Position numbers and translations under genes: made by a program
Notes under the pieces: generated by a model
The model's input: the letters and a program-made list of their open reading frames with translations, nothing else
Database searches by the model: none
What the model was told of the DNA's origin: nothing
Assembly: GCF_024505045.1 (NCBI RefSeq)
Contig: NZ_JANIBM010000003.1
Location: 248,001 to 312,000, forward strand
Length of the DNA stretch: 64,000 bases
Direction: 5' to 3'
From: Methylomonas aurea
GTDB taxonomy: Bacteria > Pseudomonadota > Gammaproteobacteria > Methylococcales > Methylomonadaceae
Shown here: piece by piece, positions 17,780-31,701 of the stretch
Position numbering within the stretch: position 1 is the first letter of the stretch
How the letters are laid out: every line of letters starts with the position of its first letter

Positions 17780-17825
17780 ACTGTTATTGTGCATTCACTA
17801 AACATTGTCTTTGAGGGGAAATCTC

Positions 17826-18872
17826 ATGAAAACTAGTAAATTGGCGGCGATAATTTCAACGCTGTTGTTAGGCGGCTTGACCGCCACTTCCGCGCAGGCT
17901 GTACCCGTGGCTTCAGCGCAATCTATTGTCGCTTTTGAGAATTTTAAGATTTTTAAAGCGGATGGCACGACTCAGCTTGACGCGGCAACTGATTTTGACG
18001 TGCTAACCGTAAACAGCTCGCAAAGAACTACTGCTTTTGTAGGCTTGGCTTCGGATACAGACACTGCTTCTTCAAGCACCGGTGAAACTCTTGCAATTAA
18101 TTCCAGCGTAGGTGTAATTCAACCAGCATCGTTGAATGCTGATATTACAGGCAATACTGCAGCCTCTCCAACAGACTTTAAGGTTGTATCACTGCCTATT
18201 ACTGGCGGGAATTTTTCGGCAACCGGTTCAAATGAGATTGGTGCGCCGATTCTGAACTTTGAAGGACTTGCTGCTACTTCGGCAAGTTTGCATAATGCTT
18301 CTTATGCGTCTCTGGATAGTACCACGGGTACTGCAGGTACCAATAGCACTAGTAAGCTGACGGCCGAGTTTACATTTGTGCCGACTACAGATGGTGAGTT
18401 GGTGTTTTCTTTCGACGCAGGGACTTATTTAGCTGCTTACTTGACTGCTGGTGCTGATCAGCGTTCAAATGCGGGTTTTTCGATCACGTTTACGTTGGTT
18501 GAAACTAACGGTCCAGGTGATGGTTTGTTTCAAGTTAATCCATTTATTAATCCTTGGGTTAACGCGCTCGGTAACTATGTCTTCAATAACGGCGTTACCG
18601 ATGACGCGCCGGGTGATGGCATAGTCAGAACTAGAAACACAAATGCAGCAGTAAATCCAGATGGAACGCTGGTTACAACCAATCAAATAATCAGGACACA
18701 GGCCTTGACTGCTGGAGTCAGCTACAATCTTTTTGCTGAAATTACCACCAGCGCAGATGTTGAATTAAGAACAGTCCCAGAGCCGCAATCACTGGCGTTG
18801 TTAGGTATCGGTTTGCTTGGTTTTGCTGCAAGCTCGTCACGTAAGATGCGCCGGCAATCTATCGCAGCATAA
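17826..18872 (+). CDS. PEP-CTERM sorting-domain surface protein
   Basis: A 348-residue exported protein with a signal peptide (M-K-T-S-K-L-A-A-I-I-S-T-L-L-L-G-G, cut near A-Q-A). It has a Ser/Thr/Ala/Gly-rich beta-type body and a C-terminal exosortase signal: V-P-E-P-Q-S, then L-A-L-L-G-I-G-L-L-G-F, then a basic tail R-K-M-R-R-Q. Exosortase cuts at the PEP motif and attaches or releases the protein at the surface. The ATG at 17826 has a GAGGGG ribosome binding site; an in-frame codon at 17805 does not. The gene is followed by a strong terminator and preceded by a sigma-54-like promoter. Composition is AT-rich. Its ligand or structural role is unknown, but such proteins often pair with exopolysaccharide. 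Confidence 0.9.
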   Translation: MKTSKLAAIISTLLLGGLTATSAQAVPVASAQSIVAFENFKIFKADGTTQLDAATDFDVLTVNSSQRTTAFVGLASDTDTASSSTGETLAINSSVGVIQPASLNADITGNTAASPTDFKVVSLPITGGNFSATGSNEIGAPILNFEGLAATSASLHNASYASLDSTTGTAGTNSTSKLTAEFTFVPTTDGELVFSFDAGTYLAAYLTAGADQRSNAGFSITFTLVETNGPGDGLFQVNPFINPWVNALGNYVFNNGVTDDAPGDGIVRTRNTNAAVNPDGTLVTTNQIIRTQALTAGVSYNLFAEITTSADVELRTVPEPQSLALLGIGLLGFAASSSRKMRRQSIAA

Positions 18873-18937: not shown

Positions 18938-19215
18938 GTTGTCATTGTGTGTCAGTATTTCTTACAGGTGCGGATAGTCTGGAATTGCTCGCAATTCAAT
19001 CGATTTCGGTCCAGTTTGGCTACACAGCTGGCTGGTTTACTTTATCGCAAACTGCCCCTGCTTAAGGCAGAAAAAGCTGTCCGACAGCGAATCGTAACGG
19101 ATCAAGGCGTCGCCGTATTTTGCGCTGTCGAGCATGTTTACGGTTTGTTTTGACAGTTAGGGTGAACGCGGTTATGTTTAAGTCCAGTTACACGTACATA
19201 GGGCGATTTCAAATT
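18938..19215. other. Intergenic region upstream of the TPR gene
   Basis: About 280 bases without a convincing gene. It holds the likely sigma-70 promoter of the TPR gene at 19150-19178. No sigma-54 motif was found here, in contrast with the PEP-CTERM gene. Confidence 0.5.
19150..19178 (+). promoter_or_regulatory. Sigma-70-type promoter of the TPR gene
   Basis: TTGACA (19150-19155), a 17-base spacer, then TATGTT (19173-19178, four of six matches to TATAAT). Transcription would start near 19185. This decides against the in-frame ATG at 19174 as a start and favours 19216. Confidence 0.5.
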
Positions 19216-21039
19216 ATGAATCCAGATAAGAAACAATACATAATGTTTAGTTTGCTTGGCAATGCAATATCGCTTCGTCGTATGAAGGTTGTAGCATTGA
19301 TCTTCAATCTAGCTTTTCTACCTCTATCAGGCAATTCTGCAACCGCGCCGATTGTAACGGACGTCTTTGACACTTCAACGTTCAAACAAGGATTTGATTC
19401 GTCGTTTGTGGATTATTTTAGTGCTAGTGATTTAATGAGTGAGCTTAGTGACAGTAATGCCGTTCGTGAAATGATTGAACAAGGGGTAAGTGAATTGGCC
19501 GCCGGTAAATTGCAATCGGGACGAGAAAAGTTAAACCGGGCTTGGTTAATGGATTCTTCATTACCAGTAGCTGGAGTTGTATTGGCTCAAAGTTATCTGA
19601 GTACAAAAGAATTCGCATTAGCGTTGGAAGTTGCAACTAAAATCCAAAAATATTCGCCTAATGTCCCTGAAGGATACACTTTAGCTGGGATTGCTAATGG
19701 TGGCTTAAAGCAATTTGACAAGGCACAAGCATCGTTCGAAAAGGCACTCGAAATCAGACCCTACGATGCTGACGCTGGCATTAACTTGGCGCAACTTTAT
19801 CTTGAGAAAAAGCAAAAGGATAATGCGAGGGCATTGTTAAATGATATAGTTTTAAATAATCCTGATAATTTGGTTGCTTTATATAGCCTAGTTAATTTAG
19901 ATGTCAAAAACGGGAAATTTGAAAGCGCGGTTTCCACTTTGGAATCTTCCATTTCTAAGAAACCCGATGATTTTCGTAGGCAAATGGCTTTGGTACAAAT
20001 TTACTTAAGCGCGAATCAAGCGGCAAAGGCGTTGGCGGTTTTGTCTGGAACGCTAAATCGCTTTCCGGAGCAAGTTGACGTAGTGGAATTGGCTGGTGTG
20101 GTTCATATGCAAAACGGAGATTTTGGAAAGGCGTTGCCACTTTTGGAGTCAGCCGTAAAGCTTTCTCCTGACAGGGTAAGCGCTCATTACAATTTAGCGC
20201 TGCTATATGAAAATCTTAAGCAAAGCGATCTTGCAGTTACTGAAATTGAAAGCGCCCTTAAACTCAAGCCCGATCACGAACCATCTAAATTTGTCCGCGC
20301 AAGATTGCTGGCTGCTACCGGACAACTGCAATTAGCTCAAAACATTATCAAAGAATTGGAATTGTCTAATGCTGACGGTGTACAAATTCCAGAATTGAAA
20401 GGTAGAATCGCTGTAGGCCAAAATAAGTTCGAAGAAGCTGTTACTCACTTTAAATCAGCATTAAGCAAACAGCCTGATAATCCACAGCTGGTAATACAGC
20501 TCGCATTTGCATTAATTGCAGGTAAGAAATCTGATGCTGGATACGGGGTATTACGAGATTGGATTGGAAAACATCCAAATGATATATCCGTAAAGATTAC
20601 TCTTGCTGATATGTTGCTAGGTAAAAATCAATTAGATGAGGCAGAAAAATATTATACCCAAGTGTTGGAATTGCAGCCTGGAAGGCTCGATGTTTCAAAT
20701 AACTTAGCGTGGTTGTTGTCAGAAAAGGGTGAGTTGAATAAAGCTATTGATCTTGCCGAAAAAAACTATAACAGCGCATCTAAAAATCCGTTGTTCATCG
20801 ATACTTTTGCTATGGTCCTTTTGAAGAAGGGTATGGCTGAAAAAGCTACTGAATTATTGCGCGATGCAGTGAGTTTGGCGCCTGATAATACTGCTATAAA
20901 ATATCATTTGGCGAAATCCTTGGTAGGTACTAATAACGAGGAAGCTAAAGAACTGTTAAGAAAAATGTTGGCTGACAAGCGGGATTTTAAGGAACGTGAA
21001 TTGAGTAATCAGCTTCTTAATAAATTAGAGGTGCAATAA
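19216..21039 (+). CDS. TPR-repeat protein, PrsT-like (PEP-CTERM system)
   Basis: About 607 residues. A hydrophobic signal-like segment (M-K-V-V-A-L-I-F-N-L-A-F-L-P-L) starts about 22 residues in. It is followed by a continuous array of tetratricopeptide repeats through to the C-terminus, seen as recurring A-x-x-x-L-A-x-x-Y and K-P-D-x-P/D-N motifs every 34 residues. The arrangement resembles PrsT, the TPR lipoprotein of PEP-CTERM/exosortase loci, though PrsT is usually longer. TPRs serve protein-protein contacts, here probably in the envelope. Start choice is uncertain: the frame is open from 19120, with weak ribosome binding sites everywhere; AGGGCGA before 19216 is the best placed. It is AT-rich like its neighbours. 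Confidence 0.75.
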   Translation: MNPDKKQYIMFSLLGNAISLRRMKVVALIFNLAFLPLSGNSATAPIVTDVFDTSTFKQGFDSSFVDYFSASDLMSELSDSNAVREMIEQGVSELAAGKLQSGREKLNRAWLMDSSLPVAGVVLAQSYLSTKEFALALEVATKIQKYSPNVPEGYTLAGIANGGLKQFDKAQASFEKALEIRPYDADAGINLAQLYLEKKQKDNARALLNDIVLNNPDNLVALYSLVNLDVKNGKFESAVSTLESSISKKPDDFRRQMALVQIYLSANQAAKALAVLSGTLNRFPEQVDVVELAGVVHMQNGDFGKALPLLESAVKLSPDRVSAHYNLALLYENLKQSDLAVTEIESALKLKPDHEPSKFVRARLLAATGQLQLAQNIIKELELSNADGVQIPELKGRIAVGQNKFEEAVTHFKSALSKQPDNPQLVIQLAFALIAGKKSDAGYGVLRDWIGKHPNDISVKITLADMLLGKNQLDEAEKYYTQVLELQPGRLDVSNNLAWLLSEKGELNKAIDLAEKNYNSASKNPLFIDTFAMVLLKKGMAEKATELLRDAVSLAPDNTAIKYHLAKSLVGTNNEEAKELLRKMLADKRDFKERELSNQLLNKLEVQ

Positions 21040-21213
21040 ATAACGGTAAGCTTGCTGCATGTTTTTTAATTAATTAACTCGCCGCAATGCCTATATATTA
21101 ACTATATGAATTTTCACAAAGTTTGCTAGCTTTTACCTTGTTTCTGCTAATACAGTGAATTTTGTGGTGGATGTGCTTTGTTAAAGTACATTCCTGCTTT
21201 TTTGGTGATCAAT

Positions 21214-22089
21214 ATGCCTAGCAGTACAGTTATTAAAGCTTTTTTTCGAGAATTTTTTGTAAAACAAACTGCGCTACGGGAAACTGAGCCTGATTTGGTC
21301 ATGGATGACCCTGAAAAAGTCGACGCTTATTCTCGTGCTGGCCGCGAAGATGGTGTGATGGCTCCGGTGTATCTTTTTCATTGTGCCCAAATCTGTGAAG
21401 TTATAAAGCCGGGGGATACCGTGCTTGACCTGGGTTGTGGCCCTGCAACTCAACTCGCGATGGTTGCTCGTTTGAATCAGAACACAAATTTTATTGGGAT
21501 GGATTTGTCGGACGAGATGCTCAGTCGAGCTCGGAAGTATACAACTGAGCAAAATTTAAAAAACATGGAATTCCAGCAAGGCGACATCACTCGCCTTGCT
21601 GGGATTTCAGACCAAAGTATTGATGCGGTTATGAGTACGGTTGTGTTGCATCATTTGCCAGATCTTGATGCGTTGGAATGTACTTTTTCGGAAATTAAAC
21701 GTATTTTAAAACCGGGAGGGGGGATTTATTTGGTCGATTTTGGGCATTTAAAATCCGAGCAATCGATTCGAGATTTTGCGTATCAATATGCTGATAGGCA
21801 GGCTGAGTTGTTTACGCTAGATTACCTATATTCATTGCGGGCAGCCTTTTGGCCTAATGACTTTAAAGAGCTCTATCAAAAGCATTTGGCTGGAGCAGGT
21901 AAATTTTATAAAACATTAGCAATGCCTTATATGATGGCTATTAAATCACCTGCTCGTCGAGAGCTTGATCCGGATTTACGAAATCAATTTAAGGCAATGG
22001 TGAAGAGCATGCCAGATTTTCATCAAACCGATTTAAAGGATCTAATGCTATTTTTCAGATTGGGTGGGCTTAAAACAAACTATTTATAA
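21214..22089 (+). CDS. Class I SAM-dependent methyltransferase
   Basis: A 291-residue methyltransferase of unknown substrate. The Rossmann core carries motif I V-L-D-L-G-C-G-P-A-T-Q-L at about 70-81 and an acidic end of strand 2 (G-M-D-L-S). The post-I region is D-A-V-M-S-T-V-V-L-H-H-L-P-D-L-D-A-L, followed by I-L-K-P-G-G-G-I-Y-L-V-D. A family-like N-terminus begins at ATG 21214 (GGTGA seven bases before). The frame also opens with a TTG at 21178. Its 3' end overlaps the convergent nitroreductase gene by 6 bases. Position beside the ThiF-like and nitroreductase genes suggests, without proof, work on a shared small molecule or peptide. Confidence 0.85.
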   Translation: MPSSTVIKAFFREFFVKQTALRETEPDLVMDDPEKVDAYSRAGREDGVMAPVYLFHCAQICEVIKPGDTVLDLGCGPATQLAMVARLNQNTNFIGMDLSDEMLSRARKYTTEQNLKNMEFQQGDITRLAGISDQSIDAVMSTVVLHHLPDLDALECTFSEIKRILKPGGGIYLVDFGHLKSEQSIRDFAYQYADRQAELFTLDYLYSLRAAFWPNDFKELYQKHLAGAGKFYKTLAMPYMMAIKSPARRELDPDLRNQFKAMVKSMPDFHQTDLKDLMLFFRLGGLKTNYL

Positions 22090-23148
22090 GGGGTTGGCAG
22101 GTTTTCTGTATGTCCGTGTCGCAATGGGGCGCGCTTTACCTATTCGAAAGCCAAATACTAATAATTCTTGAGAGCCGATATTAAATAAATTAATTAGATT
22201 TCGTTCGGCCGCTCGAATCTTTTCTAAATGGTTGATGGATACGTTGGGGGTATGTTTCTGGTTTAGTTGAAACATTAACAACGGTAATCCAACTATTGGC
22301 TGGAAAGCCAGTTCTTGACGTGTTGCCTCTAGCCAAATTCGTTGTACAGCTTGTCCGCACCGTATTAGGCTGGTTTTGTCTGTTGTTTTTACTGTAATCA
22401 TTCCCAGAGCTGAAGCGCTCCTGCAATTATATCTCCCTTTTAGCCCAATTATTCTAGACAGTCCAGCGTAATTAAGTAGTCTAACTACTGACCAGTTCTG
22501 TATTAACGGGAATAATTTTTTTTCCAGAAAATTAAGTCCTAACGTATCAATATGCATTCCATCAAGCGTAGCTTTGGCATGAGCGTTACTCCACCGAATT
22601 TGTTTAAATACGAATTCATGAAGTAGTTTGTTTTCAAAGACCAACTGGTCGTTGAATCCAAGTATTTTAGCTAACTCATTTACAAATGAATGATCGGAAG
22701 TTATGTGTATTTTTATTTCGTCAATATCGTTTCCGATTTCTGAAAGCGCCTTAATGTTCTCCGTTGGAATGTTATAGGCTTTAAATGGGTATCTATTGGT
22801 GCATCTTTTGAATATGGCATCGTAAAGAAGGCTCTTTTCCTCAGATGCTTCCGAGAGCTTTATTTTTGCGACAAAATTTGAGTCGGCTTTATCTGGGAAT
22901 AGCTTTATATCAGTTGAGTACCCAAAGTATTTTGCTGAAATAATGATGTTCTCAATGAGTGCCCCGTGTGCAATATAGGAGGCATTTTGTTGGTAGTTGT
23001 AAACGGATTGGTCTTTGTCTGGTAAGTTATATACATCAATTGTAAAAGGAGGATAAGATGATGTTTTAAGGGTCCATGGTTGAATATTATCACCAGAAGG
23101 CGCTCTGATTGCCGCTTCAATTATACTATTTAGATGTTGAGCATTCAT
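22084..23148 (-). CDS. Nitroreductase-fold protein, Acg/Rv3131-like
   Basis: A 354-residue flavoenzyme-like protein. The opening I-I-E-A-A-I-R-A-P-S-G-D-N-I-Q-P-W is the FMN-phosphate-binding start of nitroreductases. The length and two-lobed layout (repeat of the fold with R-S-A-S-A-L-G-M-I-T-V near 255-265) are those of the Acg/Rv3131-like group rather than classic single-domain enzymes. The C-terminal Q-E-L-L-V-F-G-F-R-I-G-K-A-R-P also fits. It lies 8 bases after the ThiF-like gene on the same strand, so the pair is co-transcribed. Nitroreductase-fold dehydrogenases partner E1-like enzymes in azole-forming peptide pathways, but no YcaO gene is here. Confidence 0.75.
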   Translation of the reverse strand: MNAQHLNSIIEAAIRAPSGDNIQPWTLKTSSYPPFTIDVYNLPDKDQSVYNYQQNASYIAHGALIENIIISAKYFGYSTDIKLFPDKADSNFVAKIKLSEASEEKSLLYDAIFKRCTNRYPFKAYNIPTENIKALSEIGNDIDEIKIHITSDHSFVNELAKILGFNDQLVFENKLLHEFVFKQIRWSNAHAKATLDGMHIDTLGLNFLEKKLFPLIQNWSVVRLLNYAGLSRIIGLKGRYNCRSASALGMITVKTTDKTSLIRCGQAVQRIWLEATRQELAFQPIVGLPLLMFQLNQKHTPNVSINHLEKIRAAERNLINLFNIGSQELLVFGFRIGKARPIATRTYRKPANPL

Positions 23149-23156
23149 CGTTTATG

Positions 23157-24035
23157 CTACTTTTTTCGGATTTGTTGGTTTAAGAATTGCTTTTTTGCCA
23201 AAGCGATTCCAAGTCTCTGGATCGGGTTTTTGTTGCCTCCTGGCCGCCAAGTTTTTACGAGTTTATTCCTGTATGCATCAAATTGTAGTCCCCAGGGAGC
23301 AGAAAGAATCGGGCCTCGATTTAAGAGTATCTTCAAAACTTGGGTGCCGACCACTCCGGCACAGAGGTCACAAGCCATTGGGGTTGATGGGCCTTTGTGA
23401 TTGATCAAGTCAACCGCGCTTGGATCGACAAGATACCCACGCTGCAGCATAGCTGGCGATAGGCCCAACAGAAAATAAAATATTTTTTCTACTGGGGATT
23501 TGTCGTGCAATTGAAAATATTCCTCGAAAGTCATTTTTCCAGGGATGAAGTTCAGCAACGAAGTACTCATACCTAGAGGAGCGGCAGTGATAGCAGGAAT
23601 ATTATTTTCTGCACAATAAGCGAATACTCTTTCTCTGGCATCAAAAGCAAAAAAATCTAAAGCATCTACGTATATATCTACATCTTTGAGAAATTCTTCC
23701 AGGTTTTGTTCATTAATACCGTGTTCAAATTTTTTAATTTGTAATTCAGGATTTATATCTAGCGCCATCGCTTCTAGAGTATCAGTCTTTGGTTTGTTCA
23801 AATTAGATATGCTGGCGCCGGCTTGCCGGTTAAAATTGGCTAATTCAAACTTATCGTAATCTGCAATGTTGAACGAGATAATCCCTAGTCGAACTAGAGT
23901 CAGCAGATGGCTTCCGCCAACTCCGCCCAAACCTGCGATGGCTATTTTTTTTTGCCGCAAACATGATTGTTCATTTTCCGTAATCCATCCAATGTTTCTA
24001 GAAAACGCTAGATTGTAGTTAAATTCGTTAGACAT
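23157..24035 (-). CDS. ThiF/MoeB/HesA-family E1-like adenylyltransferase
   Basis: A 292-residue protein with the E1-like fold that activates C-terminal carboxylates with ATP. The nucleotide loop G-L-G-G-V-G-G-S is at 35-42. An acidic D-Y-D at 59-61 is followed by the conserved N-R-Q at 69-71 (with R for the adenylation site). A single C-D-L-C at 222-225 replaces the two CxxC zinc pairs of MoeB/ThiF. No rhodanese domain is present. The frame opens earlier at 24140, but M-S-N-E-F at 24035 has a TGAGA ribosome binding site and is chosen. It sits between the PEP-CTERM-type sugar transferase (129-base gap) and the nitroreductase (8-base gap). No ubiquitin-like or ThiS/MoaD partner is visible nearby. 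Confidence 0.85.
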   Translation of the reverse strand: MSNEFNYNLAFSRNIGWITENEQSCLRQKKIAIAGLGGVGGSHLLTLVRLGIISFNIADYDKFELANFNRQAGASISNLNKPKTDTLEAMALDINPELQIKKFEHGINEQNLEEFLKDVDIYVDALDFFAFDARERVFAYCAENNIPAITAAPLGMSTSLLNFIPGKMTFEEYFQLHDKSPVEKIFYFLLGLSPAMLQRGYLVDPSAVDLINHKGPSTPMACDLCAGVVGTQVLKILLNRGPILSAPWGLQFDAYRNKLVKTWRPGGNKNPIQRLGIALAKKQFLNQQIRKK

Positions 24036-24164
24036 AAATCTCAGATTATTAACAATAATTGTTGGCTTGATTTCGAGGTAACTTGCCGCGGTTTTTTTAC
24101 CCGAAAATGATTGCCAACGTTTAGTACGGGTACCATGCAAATGCCTTGCGGTTATCAGTTTGAC

Positions 24165-25553
24165 TTACCTCGCTCCTTTACCCCACAAGATCACCTCGAC
24201 CGTGCTCAGCATTATCGTCAAGTCTAGAAACAGGCTGTAGTTTTTGACATAGTAAAGATCGTACTGTAGCTTCTGCCGAGTGTCGAATTCGCTGGCGCCG
24301 TAAGGATAACAAAGCTGGGCCCAGCCGGTGATGCCGGGTTTTACCCGGTGCCGTTCCTTATAGTAGGGGATGGTGTCCTCGAAACCTTTGACAAATTCCG
24401 GTCGCTCCGGACGGGGGCCGACGAAGCTCATATCCCCTTTGAGCACATTCAACAATTGCGGTAACTCGTCGATCCGGTATTTTCTGATGAACTTGCCGAC
24501 TTTGGTGACGCGGTCGTCGCTTTGGCTGGCCCATTGCGCTCCGTTTTTTTCCGCATCCACCCGCATGCTGCGGAACTTGATGACATAAAACGGGACATCG
24601 CGGTAGCCAACACGTTTTTGCCGGTAAAACACCGGCGCGCCGAACCCGCTTTCGATATAGATGGCCAGTGCGGTCAGCAGCATTAACCACCAGCTCACGG
24701 CCAGCAGCAACAGGCTGGCGATAATATCGAAGCTGCGCTTGACTATAGGCCGCATACCGTTATTGACGAAGCCGTCGGAAAACATCAGCCAACTTGGGGT
24801 GAGGGCGGCAAGAAACACCAGCCGCTGTTCCCGTTCGTAGAAGGTCTGCAAATCCATTACCTGTACACCAGACATTTTGATGTCTAGTAGTTCCTCGACC
24901 GGCAACTTTTTGCGCCTATCGTCGACCGCGATCACGATTTCGTCGACATTCGCTGCCTCGACGATGTCGGTCAATCTAATTTTATCGTTCAGGGCGATGG
25001 CATGCGGCACTGCGACCGGTTCGTCTTCCAATGTTATGTAACCGACGATTTCGAATCCTTTATAAACGTAACTGGAATTAACCACGCTCAACTCGCCGGC
25101 TCGTTCTCCGCAGCCGATTACCAGGACTCGGCGCTTTAGGTTTTCCAGATTTACAAAGCGGTAAAACAGATAGCGGGTAAGCAGTAGGCCGGCAAAAGAA
25201 AATAAGATTGCCGAAATCAACACGCTGCGGGCCAGCATGAGTTCCGGAATGATGTAGTAGGTAAATGCCAGGATGAATACTGCGACCGCAAAGCTGACGC
25301 TAATTCTTTGGAGGATATTGTATTCCTCTTTGTCCAGGGTTTTTCGGTAAAGGCCTAGAGCGGAACAACTGGTTGTCATGATAACTGAAAATACCGAGGC
25401 AGATGACGCCAATTCCGGTTGCGAATACCACGCAGCAGTGTAAAGGAAACGGACCGCAGCGCCGATGTACATCGCCGAGTAAAACACCAAGGCTTCAGCG
25501 AATAGTAGCCATAGGTACGCGGTCGATATGTAATGCCGAAAAATTCTAATCAT
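24165..25553 (-). CDS. PEP-CTERM-system sugar transferase (TIGR03013-type)
   Basis: A 462-residue polyprenyl-phosphate sugar-1-phosphate transferase that starts exopolysaccharide repeat synthesis at the inner membrane. Four to five N-terminal membrane segments (1-140) precede a Rossmann-like domain (V-L-V-I-G-C-G-E-R-A-G-E at about 142-153). A further segment at about 275-298 leads to the WbaP-type catalytic domain: F-Y-R-Q-K-R-V-G, K-F-R-S-M-R, R-K-Y-R-I-D-E-L-P-Q-L-L-N-V, D-M-S-F-V-G-P-R-P-E-R-P. The C-terminus V-K-P-G-I-T-G-W-A-Q-L-x-Y-P-Y-G-A fits the exosortase-linked subfamily. A 30-base gap separates it from the protease upstream, suggesting one transcript. Confidence 0.9.
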   Translation of the reverse strand: MIRIFRHYISTAYLWLLFAEALVFYSAMYIGAAVRFLYTAAWYSQPELASSASVFSVIMTTSCSALGLYRKTLDKEEYNILQRISVSFAVAVFILAFTYYIIPELMLARSVLISAILFSFAGLLLTRYLFYRFVNLENLKRRVLVIGCGERAGELSVVNSSYVYKGFEIVGYITLEDEPVAVPHAIALNDKIRLTDIVEAANVDEIVIAVDDRRKKLPVEELLDIKMSGVQVMDLQTFYEREQRLVFLAALTPSWLMFSDGFVNNGMRPIVKRSFDIIASLLLLAVSWWLMLLTALAIYIESGFGAPVFYRQKRVGYRDVPFYVIKFRSMRVDAEKNGAQWASQSDDRVTKVGKFIRKYRIDELPQLLNVLKGDMSFVGPRPERPEFVKGFEDTIPYYKERHRVKPGITGWAQLCYPYGASEFDTRQKLQYDLYYVKNYSLFLDLTIMLSTVEVILWGKGAR

Positions 25554-25583: not shown

Positions 25584-26363
25584 TTATTGGGCCGCATTTT
25601 GGTTCAACAGTGTCTTGATGTGTTCGGAAGGAATTGCATAAGTAATGCCGCTAGGGTTCGAAATCGCATTCTCTTTGCTGCCCTGGACGAACACCTTGTT
25701 GATGATGCCGATGACCTTACCTGACTTTATGTCATACAGAGGGCTGCCGCTATTGCCCGGATAGGCAGTCGCGTCTAATTGAAACACATCGAATGGGGTT
25801 TGCAGGCGTTTCAACATGTTGACATTCAACTGGTTGCTGGCAATAGCCGGGATGGCATTAGGCGATATCGCGGCGATAATGCTGCGGTGCGTGACCGGAT
25901 AAAGACCCAATACCATGCCGATTGGGTAGCCGGTGAACGCATACTGTTCGCCCTCGCGGACACGCTGCGAATCGCCGATTTCAAGCGCCGGCAGGGCTCG
26001 GCCCTCGACACTCAGCAGTGCCAGATCGTGGTCTTCATCGGTCGCGCGGAGTTCGGCAACCTGCATCTGTTCTTTTTGTTCGTCCCGGTAGAACACCGCA
26101 AAGCGCTCTAGATGGGCTCCATCCAATTTTTTCGCTGTGACATGGGCATTCGTGATTACTTTACTGCCATCGGCAACAACAAAACCGGTGCCGAGAAACA
26201 CCCCCCGCGGATTGCGGCTGGGCATATAGGTGCCTATCGCCACAATCCCAGGTTTAATTCGGCTTAATATGTCCGGTAGGTTAAATTCGCTGGCGTAGCC
26301 CCCAGCGGAAAATAGTAACAATGCCAGGAAAGCGATCGGGAAATACGGTGTGCGGTTTTTCAT
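25584..26363 (-). CDS. Exported trypsin-like serine protease without PDZ domain
   Basis: A 259-residue protease of the DegP/S1C type. It has a signal peptide (1-24, ending G-Y-A-S). The catalytic triad is intact: His in T-N-A-H-V (about 69), Asp in D-E-D-H-D-L-A-L-L (about 107), Ser in A-Y-P-G-N-S-G-S-P-L (about 200). The protein ends soon after the protease domain, so the PDZ domains of DegP/DegS are absent. It would act in the periplasm. It heads a leftward run with the sugar transferase and probably the ThiF-like and nitroreductase genes. A role in processing surface proteins of this locus is an inference. Confidence 0.85.
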   Translation of the reverse strand: MKNRTPYFPIAFLALLLFSAGGYASEFNLPDILSRIKPGIVAIGTYMPSRNPRGVFLGTGFVVADGSKVITNAHVTAKKLDGAHLERFAVFYRDEQKEQMQVAELRATDEDHDLALLSVEGRALPALEIGDSQRVREGEQYAFTGYPIGMVLGLYPVTHRSIIAAISPNAIPAIASNQLNVNMLKRLQTPFDVFQLDATAYPGNSGSPLYDIKSGKVIGIINKVFVQGSKENAISNPSGITYAIPSEHIKTLLNQNAAQ

Positions 26364-30346: not shown

Positions 30347-31701
30347 CAGGCTGGTGAAAAACTCGCGCCTATTTTCCCTTACCCACGGTTCTCGTGATTT
30401 TTTCGCGTTGAAATCAGTCATAAAATCGAGTTTCAACGGTTAGGCCTCTGTTTCGAGGACTTTTTATCCACCTGAAGCCGTCCTTGAGCGGCCTTCAGGC
30501 ACACTTCGCCCTAGGTGGGCTTAGCCCACGCCGGTTTCGGCGTGAATACCAGTAAGTTCAGCAGCCGTGTCAGGTTGTACGCGGCAAAGCAAAATAAGGC
30601 TTGGCCTGCCACTTTGGCTAAACCAATGTGGCGGGTTTTGCGCAGGCCTCCGACAGTCTTGATCCAGCCGAAGGCTTCTTCGACGATTTTGCGGCGCTTG
30701 AGGCTTTGGGCATAGCCTTTGCCGCGAGCGGTGCGGCCATCGACAGCACTGCCGGTCTTTTTGCGGGCCACATGGGCTTTGATGTCTTGCGCGTTGAGTT
30801 GGTTGACGAACGCCGGTTGGTCGTAGCCTTTGTCGGCACCGACGCTGCCGCCTTTGGGCACGCGGCGTTTGATCATTTTTTGGGCGGCTTCGATTTCGGC
30901 GGTGCCGGTGGCTTGGGTGGTTTCGACATCGACAATCAGGCCATTGCGGTTCTCGGACAAGGCATGCGTGATGTAGCGCAGTTTGGCTTCGGTGTATTCA
31001 CCTTTCTTGTAGAGCCGCGCTTCGGGATCGGTCGTGCTTTGGTGGGTGGCGTTGCTGCGCTTTTCGCCGCTGAAGTCGACCTCGGGATTGCGGCCGGCGG
31101 GCTTATCTGAGCCGCTACCGTCTTTTTTTACCAAGCTTTTGTGCGAGGCCCAGGCTTCGATCAGACTGCCGTCGACACTGAAGTGTTCGTCGGACACCAG
31201 GTTTTGCCATTCCGCTATGGCCAGCACTCGGGTGAAAAATTCGCGGCTGAGGGATTCAGACAATAGGCGCTCGCGGTTGGCGCTAAAGACGCTGCGCTCC
31301 CAAACGGCGTCATCAATGCCCAGACCGACAAACCAGCGAAACAGCAGGTTGTAGTCCAGTTGTTCCATCAACTGTCGCTCACTGCGAACGGTATAGAGCA
31401 CTTGCAACAGCAAGGCGCGCAGCAATTTTTCAGGGGCAATCGACGGGCGACCGGTGTGGGAGTAACGCTCGGCGAACACAGCATCCATTGCGACCAAGAC
31501 GCCATCGACCAATAGCCGTAAGCGGCGTAGCGGATGCTGTTTGGGAATACGGTCTTCCAGGCTGACATAGCTGAACCAGCTGTGTTGGATGGCATCGTGT
31601 CCGCGCATTGGAGCATCTCCAAATTTAGGTAGCCTATTTTACCAGTTGCCGGCAGCTTCCGACCTTGAATTGCTTGCCTTTCTGAGTTTTTCACCAGCCT
31701 G
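30347..31701 (-). mobile_element. Complete IS5-family insertion sequence, about 1.36 kb
   Basis: The element is bounded by inverted repeats CAGGCTGGTGAAAAA (from 30347) and TTTTTCACCAGCCTG (to 31701), and flanked by CTAA duplications. It carries one intact transposase gene on the minus strand. It inserted into an older, related element, splitting that copy's transposase close to its 3' end. The matching duplications and intact gene suggest a relatively recent insertion. Confidence 0.88.
30511..31608 (-). CDS. IS5-family DDE transposase
   Basis: A 365-residue transposase with an N-terminal DUF772-type domain (F-S-Y-V-S-L-E-D-R-I-P near 12-22) and an RNase H-like catalytic domain. The probable catalytic residues are Asp146 (F-S-V-D-G-S-L-I-E-A-W), Asp259 (V-G-A-D-K-G-Y-D) and a Glu at 310 or 311 (K-I-V-E-E-A-F-G-W-I-K-T). 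All are present and the frame is unbroken, so the enzyme may be active. It lies within a complete element with terminal repeats and target duplications. Confidence 0.93.
   Translation of the reverse strand: MRGHDAIQHSWFSYVSLEDRIPKQHPLRRLRLLVDGVLVAMDAVFAERYSHTGRPSIAPEKLLRALLLQVLYTVRSERQLMEQLDYNLLFRWFVGLGIDDAVWERSVFSANRERLLSESLSREFFTRVLAIAEWQNLVSDEHFSVDGSLIEAWASHKSLVKKDGSGSDKPAGRNPEVDFSGEKRSNATHQSTTDPEARLYKKGEYTEAKLRYITHALSENRNGLIVDVETTQATGTAEIEAAQKMIKRRVPKGGSVGADKGYDQPAFVNQLNAQDIKAHVARKKTGSAVDGRTARGKGYAQSLKRRKIVEEAFGWIKTVGGLRKTRHIGLAKVAGQALFCFAAYNLTRLLNLLVFTPKPAWAKPT

Follow-up and report, generated by a model that had tools for sequence, protein, structure and literature searches.

A ThiF/E1-like enzyme, an Acg-type nitroreductase and an E1-associated methyltransferase in a PEP-CTERM region of Methylomonas aurea point to a probable N-acyl amino acid pathway

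What might a ThiF/E1-like adenylating enzyme, a nitroreductase-fold flavin protein and a methyltransferase make together, when their genes lie side by side among those of a PEP-CTERM surface-protein system? The question is raised by a 64,000-nucleotide stretch of the Methylomonas aurea genome (4.8 Mb, 99.98% complete), positions C3:248001-312000 of contig NZ_JANIBM010000003.1 and referred to here as the window; contigs, genomes and collected loci carry our handles C, G and L. An earlier note, made from the sequence alone, had suggested an unreported system modifying a surface peptide, lipid or sugar. According to the present analysis, the E1-like protein (E1) and the nitroreductase probably belong to an N-acyl amino acid pathway of the Oxz/Tyz/Trz kind, in which the former would close the ring and the latter desaturate. 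The pair itself is hence not unreported, its chemistry being the published acyl-oxazolone and N-acyl-dehydrotyrosine chemistry of TyzB/TyzC, TrzS, OxzB and the NasY clusters. It is known chemistry in a new setting, and the methyltransferase associated with the E1 is the new element. Among the targets named in the note, a lipid is the likely one; the peptide pathway, a precursor and a ThiS/MoaD-like partner found no support.

The layout of the three genes was confirmed exactly in the open reading frame (ORF) check, including the distances noted earlier. The E1 gene (23157-24035, minus strand) starts with an ATG at 24035, its reading frame staying open up to a TTG at 24140, and is separated by 8 bases (23149-23156) from the nitroreductase gene (22084-23148) on the same strand. 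The methyltransferase gene (21214-22089, plus strand, frame open to a TTG at 21178) converges on the latter, and the 3' ends overlap by 6 bases (22084-22089). The E1 matches ThiF (PF00899, 140 bits) and, far above the cut-off of 266, the PRK08223 family (NF006077, 426.5 bits), of which the genome holds one match at E<=1e-70; the closest E1 from a named organism is that of Methylomonas sp. WSC-6 (74%). It also matches the E1 parts of PRK14851 (290 bits) and PRK14852 and is nearer to PRK08223 and PRK14851 than to the Rv1355c family of TrzS (PRK07877, 65 bits). The nitroreductase (PF00881, 34.5 bits; Acg family NF047509, 132 bits, below the cut-off of 199) aligns with its ~345 residues to the C-terminal parts of PRK14851 (219 bits) and of PRK07877, the "Rv1355c family" (203 bits, positions 374-715, full length of the nitroreductase aligned), scores that lie under the whole-protein cut-offs of these models (1170 and 476). 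The parts of PRK14851 and PRK07877 matched by the nitroreductase are those other than the E1 part, so that the two neighbours correspond to the two halves of what is a single chain elsewhere.

The proposed pathway is supported by the match of the nitroreductase, over its full length, to the FDO part of the Rv1355c (TrzS) family; TrzS is an experimentally tested ThiF-like cyclase plus flavin oxidase/desaturase that makes N-acyl tryptazolones (PMC12856293). The predicted structure of the window's nitroreductase (mean predicted local distance difference test, pLDDT, 91.8) has the Acg homologue 2ymv as its top fold match, which the TrzS authors likewise obtained as a structural match (PMC12856293). 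The motif P17-S18-x-D20-N21-x-Q23 is kept, with S18, D20, N21 and Q23 invariant in the alignment. How general the pairing is can be seen in a set of E1 loci (the best 80 of 91 from one scan of species genomes, 81 with the window), which was scored with domain models for E1 and nitroreductase since many ORFs are fusions. The nitroreductase domain is fused to the E1 or lies within 2.5 kb in 59/81 loci, as a fused ORF in 26, as a same-strand neighbour in 22 and on the opposite strand in 11. An FDO (Acg-type) nitroreductase fused or adjacent to the cyclase, as in acyl-oxazolone systems, is present in the window too, judging by the 8-base gap, the 203-bit match and the likeness to 2ymv.

The second feature of Oxz/Tyz/Trz systems, a ThiF-like cyclase with an intact ATP site, is also in place. 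The glycines of GxGGxG, N69-R70-Q71 and D127 are invariant in 81/81 aligned E1 proteins, in agreement with the intact ATP loop and N-R-Q motif noticed before. In the alignment with ThiF, D127 falls on the second Asp of the stretch DCTD. For TrzS, an Asp217->Ala exchange is described to leave only uncyclised acyl-tryptophan, the residue having been picked by analogy with a conserved ThiF residue (PMC12856293); D127 and Asp217 may well be the same residue. The E1 is predicted to act on N-acyl amino acids by adenylating the carboxylate and closing the oxazolone ring, which would give PRK08223, a "hypothetical protein" in NCBIfam, a suggested function. The single CxxC, which the earlier note had marked as a peculiarity, is kept across the 81 proteins as the only such pair (Cys222 in 70/81, Cys225 in 74/81) and is therefore a family trait. 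Cys141 is found in 80/81, no further Cys column reaches 25/81, and no conserved Cys lies between positions 142 and 221, the region that holds the catalytic Cys in ThiF/MoeB.

These residues bear directly on an azole-forming pathway of ribosomally synthesized and post-translationally modified peptides (RiPPs), or the activation of a ThiS/MoaD-type sulfur carrier, which we regard as the least credible of the alternatives. ThiF-fold proteins and flavin mononucleotide (FMN) oxidases do occur together in azole-forming RiPP systems, but the E1 has one CxxC and no conserved Cys at 142-221, its scores are below the sulfur-carrier cut-offs (MoeB PRK05690, 72 of 266 bits; ThiF TIGR02356, 80 of 275 bits), and MoeB (342 bits) is encoded separately in the genome, as is a TcdA-like protein (170 bits, under its cut-off of 304). 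The E1 does not group with MoeB or TcdA; the solved E1 structures closest in sequence include TcdA. A sulfur-carrier E1 of the MoeB/ThiF type was rejected on the single CxxC, the sub-cut-off scores and the separate MoeB. A conserved precursor peptide was rejected as well: of 56 small ORFs at 20900-24300 compared with the collected loci, the 15 with matches all overlap the methyltransferase, nitroreductase, E1 or EpsB genes, and the two mainly intergenic ones had no match. That no precursor peptide had been seen earlier accordingly stands. A Pfam scan of 16 window proteins, the only part of the genome searched for YcaO, found none.

Which partner, then, supplies the substrate? On the sequence evidence, the partner of the E1 appears to be the TIGR03694 amino acid N-acyltransferase, and the genome encodes three, all over the cut-off and with a putative acceptor amino acid (C3:219655-220356, 226.7 bits; C3:214807-215430, 176.7 bits; C4:200191-200817, 176.2 bits). 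Surveys covered 121 genomes of the order and 370 of the class; genomes are related and hence not independent, so that p values for co-occurrence are indicative only. The order survey, in which E1 was counted above its cut-off (PRK08223, 266), gave E1 in 37, TIGR03694 in 67 and the XrtA exosortase in 49 genomes. TIGR03694 was present in 36/37 E1-positive versus 31/84 E1-negative genomes, and XrtA in 28/37 versus 21/84, which upholds the PEP-CTERM link proposed before; compared with the exosortase, the acyltransferase is the closer companion of the E1. The class shows the same pattern, with E1 in 44, TIGR03694 in 55 and both in 37 genomes (37/44 E1-positive versus 18/326 E1-negative). Where both are present, they are at most 1 kb apart in 20, at most 5 kb in 27 and at most 12 kb in 31 of the 37. 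An acyltransferase ORF lies in the examined flank of 66/81 E1 loci, 45 being TIGR03694-like and 21 FeeM-like (three of the latter were scanned, and all match PF21926 FeeM with 177-182 bits). In a locus from the same family as the window (L143), two TIGR03694 acyltransferases, E1, nitroreductase and methyltransferase lie inside 4.9 kb. In Massilia kyonggiensis JCM 19189 (L032), a FeeM-like gene, the E1 and the nitroreductase follow one another; the FeeM-type acyltransferase (L032:9158-9934) matches the N-terminus of PRK14852 (46 bits), the E1 and nitroreductase parts of which come after, so that PRK14852 looks like a three-domain fusion of acyltransferase, E1 and nitroreductase. This strain is described as the producer of kyonggic acid (PMC12479983).

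These enzymes could act in the following manner. First, an amino acid, probably aromatic, would be N-acylated with a fatty acyl group by a TIGR03694 acyltransferase whose gene lies outside this cluster. The E1 would then adenylate the carboxylate of the N-acyl amino acid with ATP, and attack of the amide oxygen on the adenylated carboxylate would yield a 5-oxazolone ring. Using O2, the flavin enzyme would oxidise the bond between C-alpha and C-beta; the result would be an acyl-oxazolone or, should the ring open afterwards, an N-acyl-dehydroamino acid, and the methyltransferase may tailor the oxazolone or dehydro product. The cell making this lipid would be one that runs the XrtA/PEP-CTERM system, and the lipid's probable place of action is the surface or the matrix. 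Gene identities, conserved residues and co-occurrence are direct observations, and acylation, cyclisation and desaturation have been demonstrated by others on homologues, from which we infer by analogy that these very proteins do the same; the amino acid used, the methylated position and the role at the surface are likewise inferred. Within the same pathway the end product may differ: with a probability somewhat short of even, the oxazolone is a transient activated form that acidifies the alpha carbon so that it can be desaturated, and the pathway ends with an open-chain N-acyl-dehydroamino acid resembling thalassotalic or kyonggic acid. TrzS cyclises before desaturating, and its ring is opened by acid or alcohol (PMC12856293), which speaks for such an open-chain product; on the other side, the closed ring has been reported from Pseudoalteromonas rubra, Mycobacterium tuberculosis (tyrazolone), M. 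smegmatis and R. jostii (tryptazolone).

Several observations weigh against assigning the window to this pathway. The acyltransferase is unclustered in this genome, where 50.8 kb separate the E1 from the nearest copy (C3:219655-220356). Among the remaining 36 class genomes that have both genes, 4 carry it on a different contig and one at a distance of 22.5 kb, and 7/44 E1-positive class genomes gave no TIGR03694 match (the FeeM type was not searched for in those). Similarly, 22/81 E1 loci contain no nitroreductase in the examined stretch, some stretches being short, and at E<=1e-12 none was detected in 13/47 E1-positive genomes, while 3 others gave only a weak match; the E1 can therefore do without a nitroreductase partner. 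In a quick tree the window's nitroreductase and other Methylomonas-group proteins form a divergent 10-row clade (support 96), the fused forms residing in a separate 53-row clade, and it carries Val170 where 73/85 relatives carry Arg. Val170 is also found in the inspected members of this small clade, and the substrate of the window's enzyme may be shifted. XrtA is absent in 9/37 E1-positive genomes of the order, and none of the LolA-like, outer-membrane-like and MMPL genes that accompany the E1 in other loci (see below) was found in the window or in L090-L093. Finally, the producers of stieleriacine, thalassotalic acid and kyonggic acid, in which the N-acyl amino acid synthase regions also contain ThiF and nitroreductase genes, have not been found to yield an acyl-oxazolone (PMC12479983).

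The third gene, coding for a methyltransferase dependent on S-adenosylmethionine (PF13847, 88 bits), belongs to a conserved family; aligned with 13 relatives, it shares 47-75% identity with 12 and 31% with one. The 81 loci were chosen by their E1 and are uninformative on whether the methyltransferase occurs only with E1; this statement rests on the two scans of the class (E<=1e-40) and the order (E<=1e-30). The class scan found it in 9/370 genomes, the window's included, all nine E1-positive (hypergeometric 2e-9, an indicative value given the relatedness of the genomes), and the order scan in 4/121, all four E1-positive. In 8/9 class genomes it lies within 2.8 kb of the E1, and in G429 on a separate contig. 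Of the 12 distinct genomes from both scans, 11 have the nitroreductase; G390, whose methyltransferase is 45% identical, has none at E<=1e-12. None of the 18 class genomes with TIGR03694 but no E1 carries the gene. With these thresholds, the methyltransferase is found only with E1 and is the new element of the system; its grouping with the E1 is not chance. Neither of the two refuting tests set in the earlier note went against its idea: the co-occurrence of the three genes is real as a grouping of E1, nitroreductase and methyltransferase and limited in extent, the last being present in a minority of E1 loci (11/81) and of E1-positive genomes of the order (4/37). This minority, and the 18 changes of state for 20 carriers on the E1 tree, could be expected if the methyltransferase were an unrelated neighbour and only E1 and nitroreductase cooperated; this is very improbable, as all carriers in both scans have E1, 8/9 within 2.8 kb, and the gene lies convergently beside E1 or nitroreductase in nine loci (L013, L034, L055, L068, L082, L143, L150, L175 and L180). 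The methyltransferase is rather an accessory that is frequently gained or lost.

What it methylates is a matter of much lower confidence than the pathway. A rather doubtful proposal is that it acts on the oxazolone formed by the E1, either at the acidic alpha carbon, leading to N-acyl alpha-methyl amino acids, or at the ring oxygen, leading to a 5-methoxyoxazole. This would explain why it is found only with E1, in none of the 18 genomes with the acyltransferase alone, and yet in G390. The predicted structure (pLDDT 90.1) has the C-methyltransferases CouO and NovO as top fold matches, a hint, not proof, of C-methylation. O- and ring-C-methylated N-acyl tyrosines are described in PMC12479983, and an alpha-methyl N-acyl tyrosine appears as a reference title in PMC7293339.

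An XrtA exosortase is encoded on another contig (C2; TIGR03109, 329.4 bits) and, together with the EDSAP-1 family PEP-CTERM protein at 17823-18872 of the window (plus strand; NF041538, 124.9 bits, cut-off 100), makes up an XrtA/PEP-CTERM system. The flanking genes identified earlier were both borne out: an EpsB-type PEP-CTERM system glycosyltransferase (24165-25553, minus strand; TIGR03013, 572 bits), encoded on the strand of the E1 and 129 bases upstream of it, which is context and only a putative member of the pathway, and a PrsT-like TPR protein (19210-21039, plus strand; TIGR02917, 379.7 bits) that is shorter than its model (positions 393-898 of 899).

Could the enzymes then modify a PEP-CTERM protein or glycan directly, for instance the EDSAP-1 protein? 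E1 enzymes classically act on protein C-termini, and EDSAP-1-like proteins go with the methyltransferase: they were found in 8/20 methyltransferase loci versus 1/130 E1 loci without it (eight duplicate loci removed beforehand), or in 6/18 versus 1/130 without L166 and L182, two cases sampled for their methyltransferase. In L034 (2395-3402), L055 (13090-14007), L150 (5736-6713) and L175 (8309-9316) the EDSAP-1-like gene is directly beside the methyltransferase on the same strand; L150, from the same genus as the window, groups it with methyltransferase, nitroreductase and E1. On the tree, 12 independent pairs give ~4.5 agreeing and virtually none opposing (median p 0.125), so that the association is one-sided, not significant after tree correction and suggestive only; most of the stretches are centred on the E1 and many are ended by contig ends, which makes absences soft. 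Against direct modification stand the closer link of the E1 to the acyltransferase (36/37) than to XrtA (28/37), the lack of a conserved small peptide among the 56 small ORFs and the 12/20 methyltransferase loci in which EDSAP-1 was not found. Exosortases, moreover, act outside the cytoplasm. Direct modification is therefore very improbable, and the lipid pathway is preferred. Should the oxazolone indeed be methylated, the methylated or reactive lipid could be the missing small-molecule partner of the EDSAP-1 PEP-CTERM surface proteins.

Among the closest known systems is TyzA/TyzB/TyzC of Mycobacterium tuberculosis, where TyzB and TyzC carry out like chemistry as separate proteins (PMC10404671). 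Both this system and the window have separate adjacent genes for a ThiF-like cyclase and an FDO nitroreductase and an amino acid N-acyltransferase as partner; unlike TyzA, which is adjacent on the other strand, the TIGR03694-type acyltransferase of the window's genome is 51 kb away, and the window adds the methyltransferase and the PEP-CTERM setting. TrzA/TrzS (Rv1356c/Rv1355c) and OxzA/OxzB of P. rubra have the same two domains, fused in TrzS and OxzB and split in the window (PMC12856293). The NasY-ThiF-nitroreductase(-methyltransferase) clusters of Stieleria, Thalassotalea and M. kyonggiensis contain the same kinds of enzyme, whereas the acyltransferase is unlinked in the window; the methyltransferase near the ThiF gene in the Stieleria regions can be likened to that of the window by enzyme kind only (PMC12479983). 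The PEP-CTERM-linked N-acyl amino acid synthases (via PMC7293339 and PMC11072679) share TIGR03694 in a PEP-CTERM genome, with three copies in the present one. A search of the open-licence literature found nothing tying PEP-CTERM/exosortase systems to ThiF, nitroreductase, EDSAP or oxazolone chemistry.

Why amino acid N-acyltransferases accompany PEP-CTERM systems is an open question, and E1, flavin oxidase and E1-associated methyltransferase are now pointed to as the next enzymes. Disruption of a predicted PEP-CTERM N-acyl amino acid synthase gene in Methylomonas sp. LW13 is reported to abolish the normal polysaccharide band and growth in a gradient syringe, and complementation to restore both (PMC11072679), so that the question is testable in a tractable methanotroph. 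Candidate exporters, together with these enzymes, allow a prediction of the lipid to be sought. LolA-like, outer-membrane-like and MMPL ORFs lie near the E1 in 23, 22 and 18 of the 81 loci and all three in 13 (e.g. L027:10908-15776, L040, L009, L013 and L067); 8/13 of these lack the nitroreductase, including six from Thioalkalivibrio with the LolA-like gene adjoining the E1. The outer-membrane label was assigned by eye, and the one such protein scanned gave no Pfam match. MMPL proteins transport lipids in other bacteria, and MMPL ORFs near the E1 fit a lipid product; the trio is a possible lipid exporter.

The neighbourhood also recurs in part. A PrsT-like ORF lies in the examined flank of 50/81 E1 loci, the window included, and EpsB together with the protease in 7/9 other same-genus E1 stretches (L136, L137, L138, L141, L144, L150 and L164; not L146 and L161). 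One neighbour of the acyltransferase gene at C3:219655-220356 encodes a cyclic-nucleotide-binding domain, and the other is PrsT-like (L090; 303 bits, just under the cut-off of 312). The distance of the best TIGR03694 copy from the E1 varies within the genus: ~49-50 kb in G024, G060 and G073, 69 kb in G106, ~2.5 Mb in G040, another contig in G115 and at most 3 kb in G083 and G110. The protease adjoining EpsB is trypsin-like (25584-26363, minus strand; PF13365 Trypsin_2, 90.7 bits; context only), and a similar one is found in the flank of 25/81 E1 loci, the window included. In L058 and L063 (Salinimonas and Alteromonas; no nitroreductase), a trypsin-like protease is seen by eye on one side of the E1 and several similar PEP-CTERM proteins in succession on the other. 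A DDE transposase (DUF772 plus DDE_Tnp_1) is encoded at 30511-31608 of the window, ~6.5 kb from the E1 gene.

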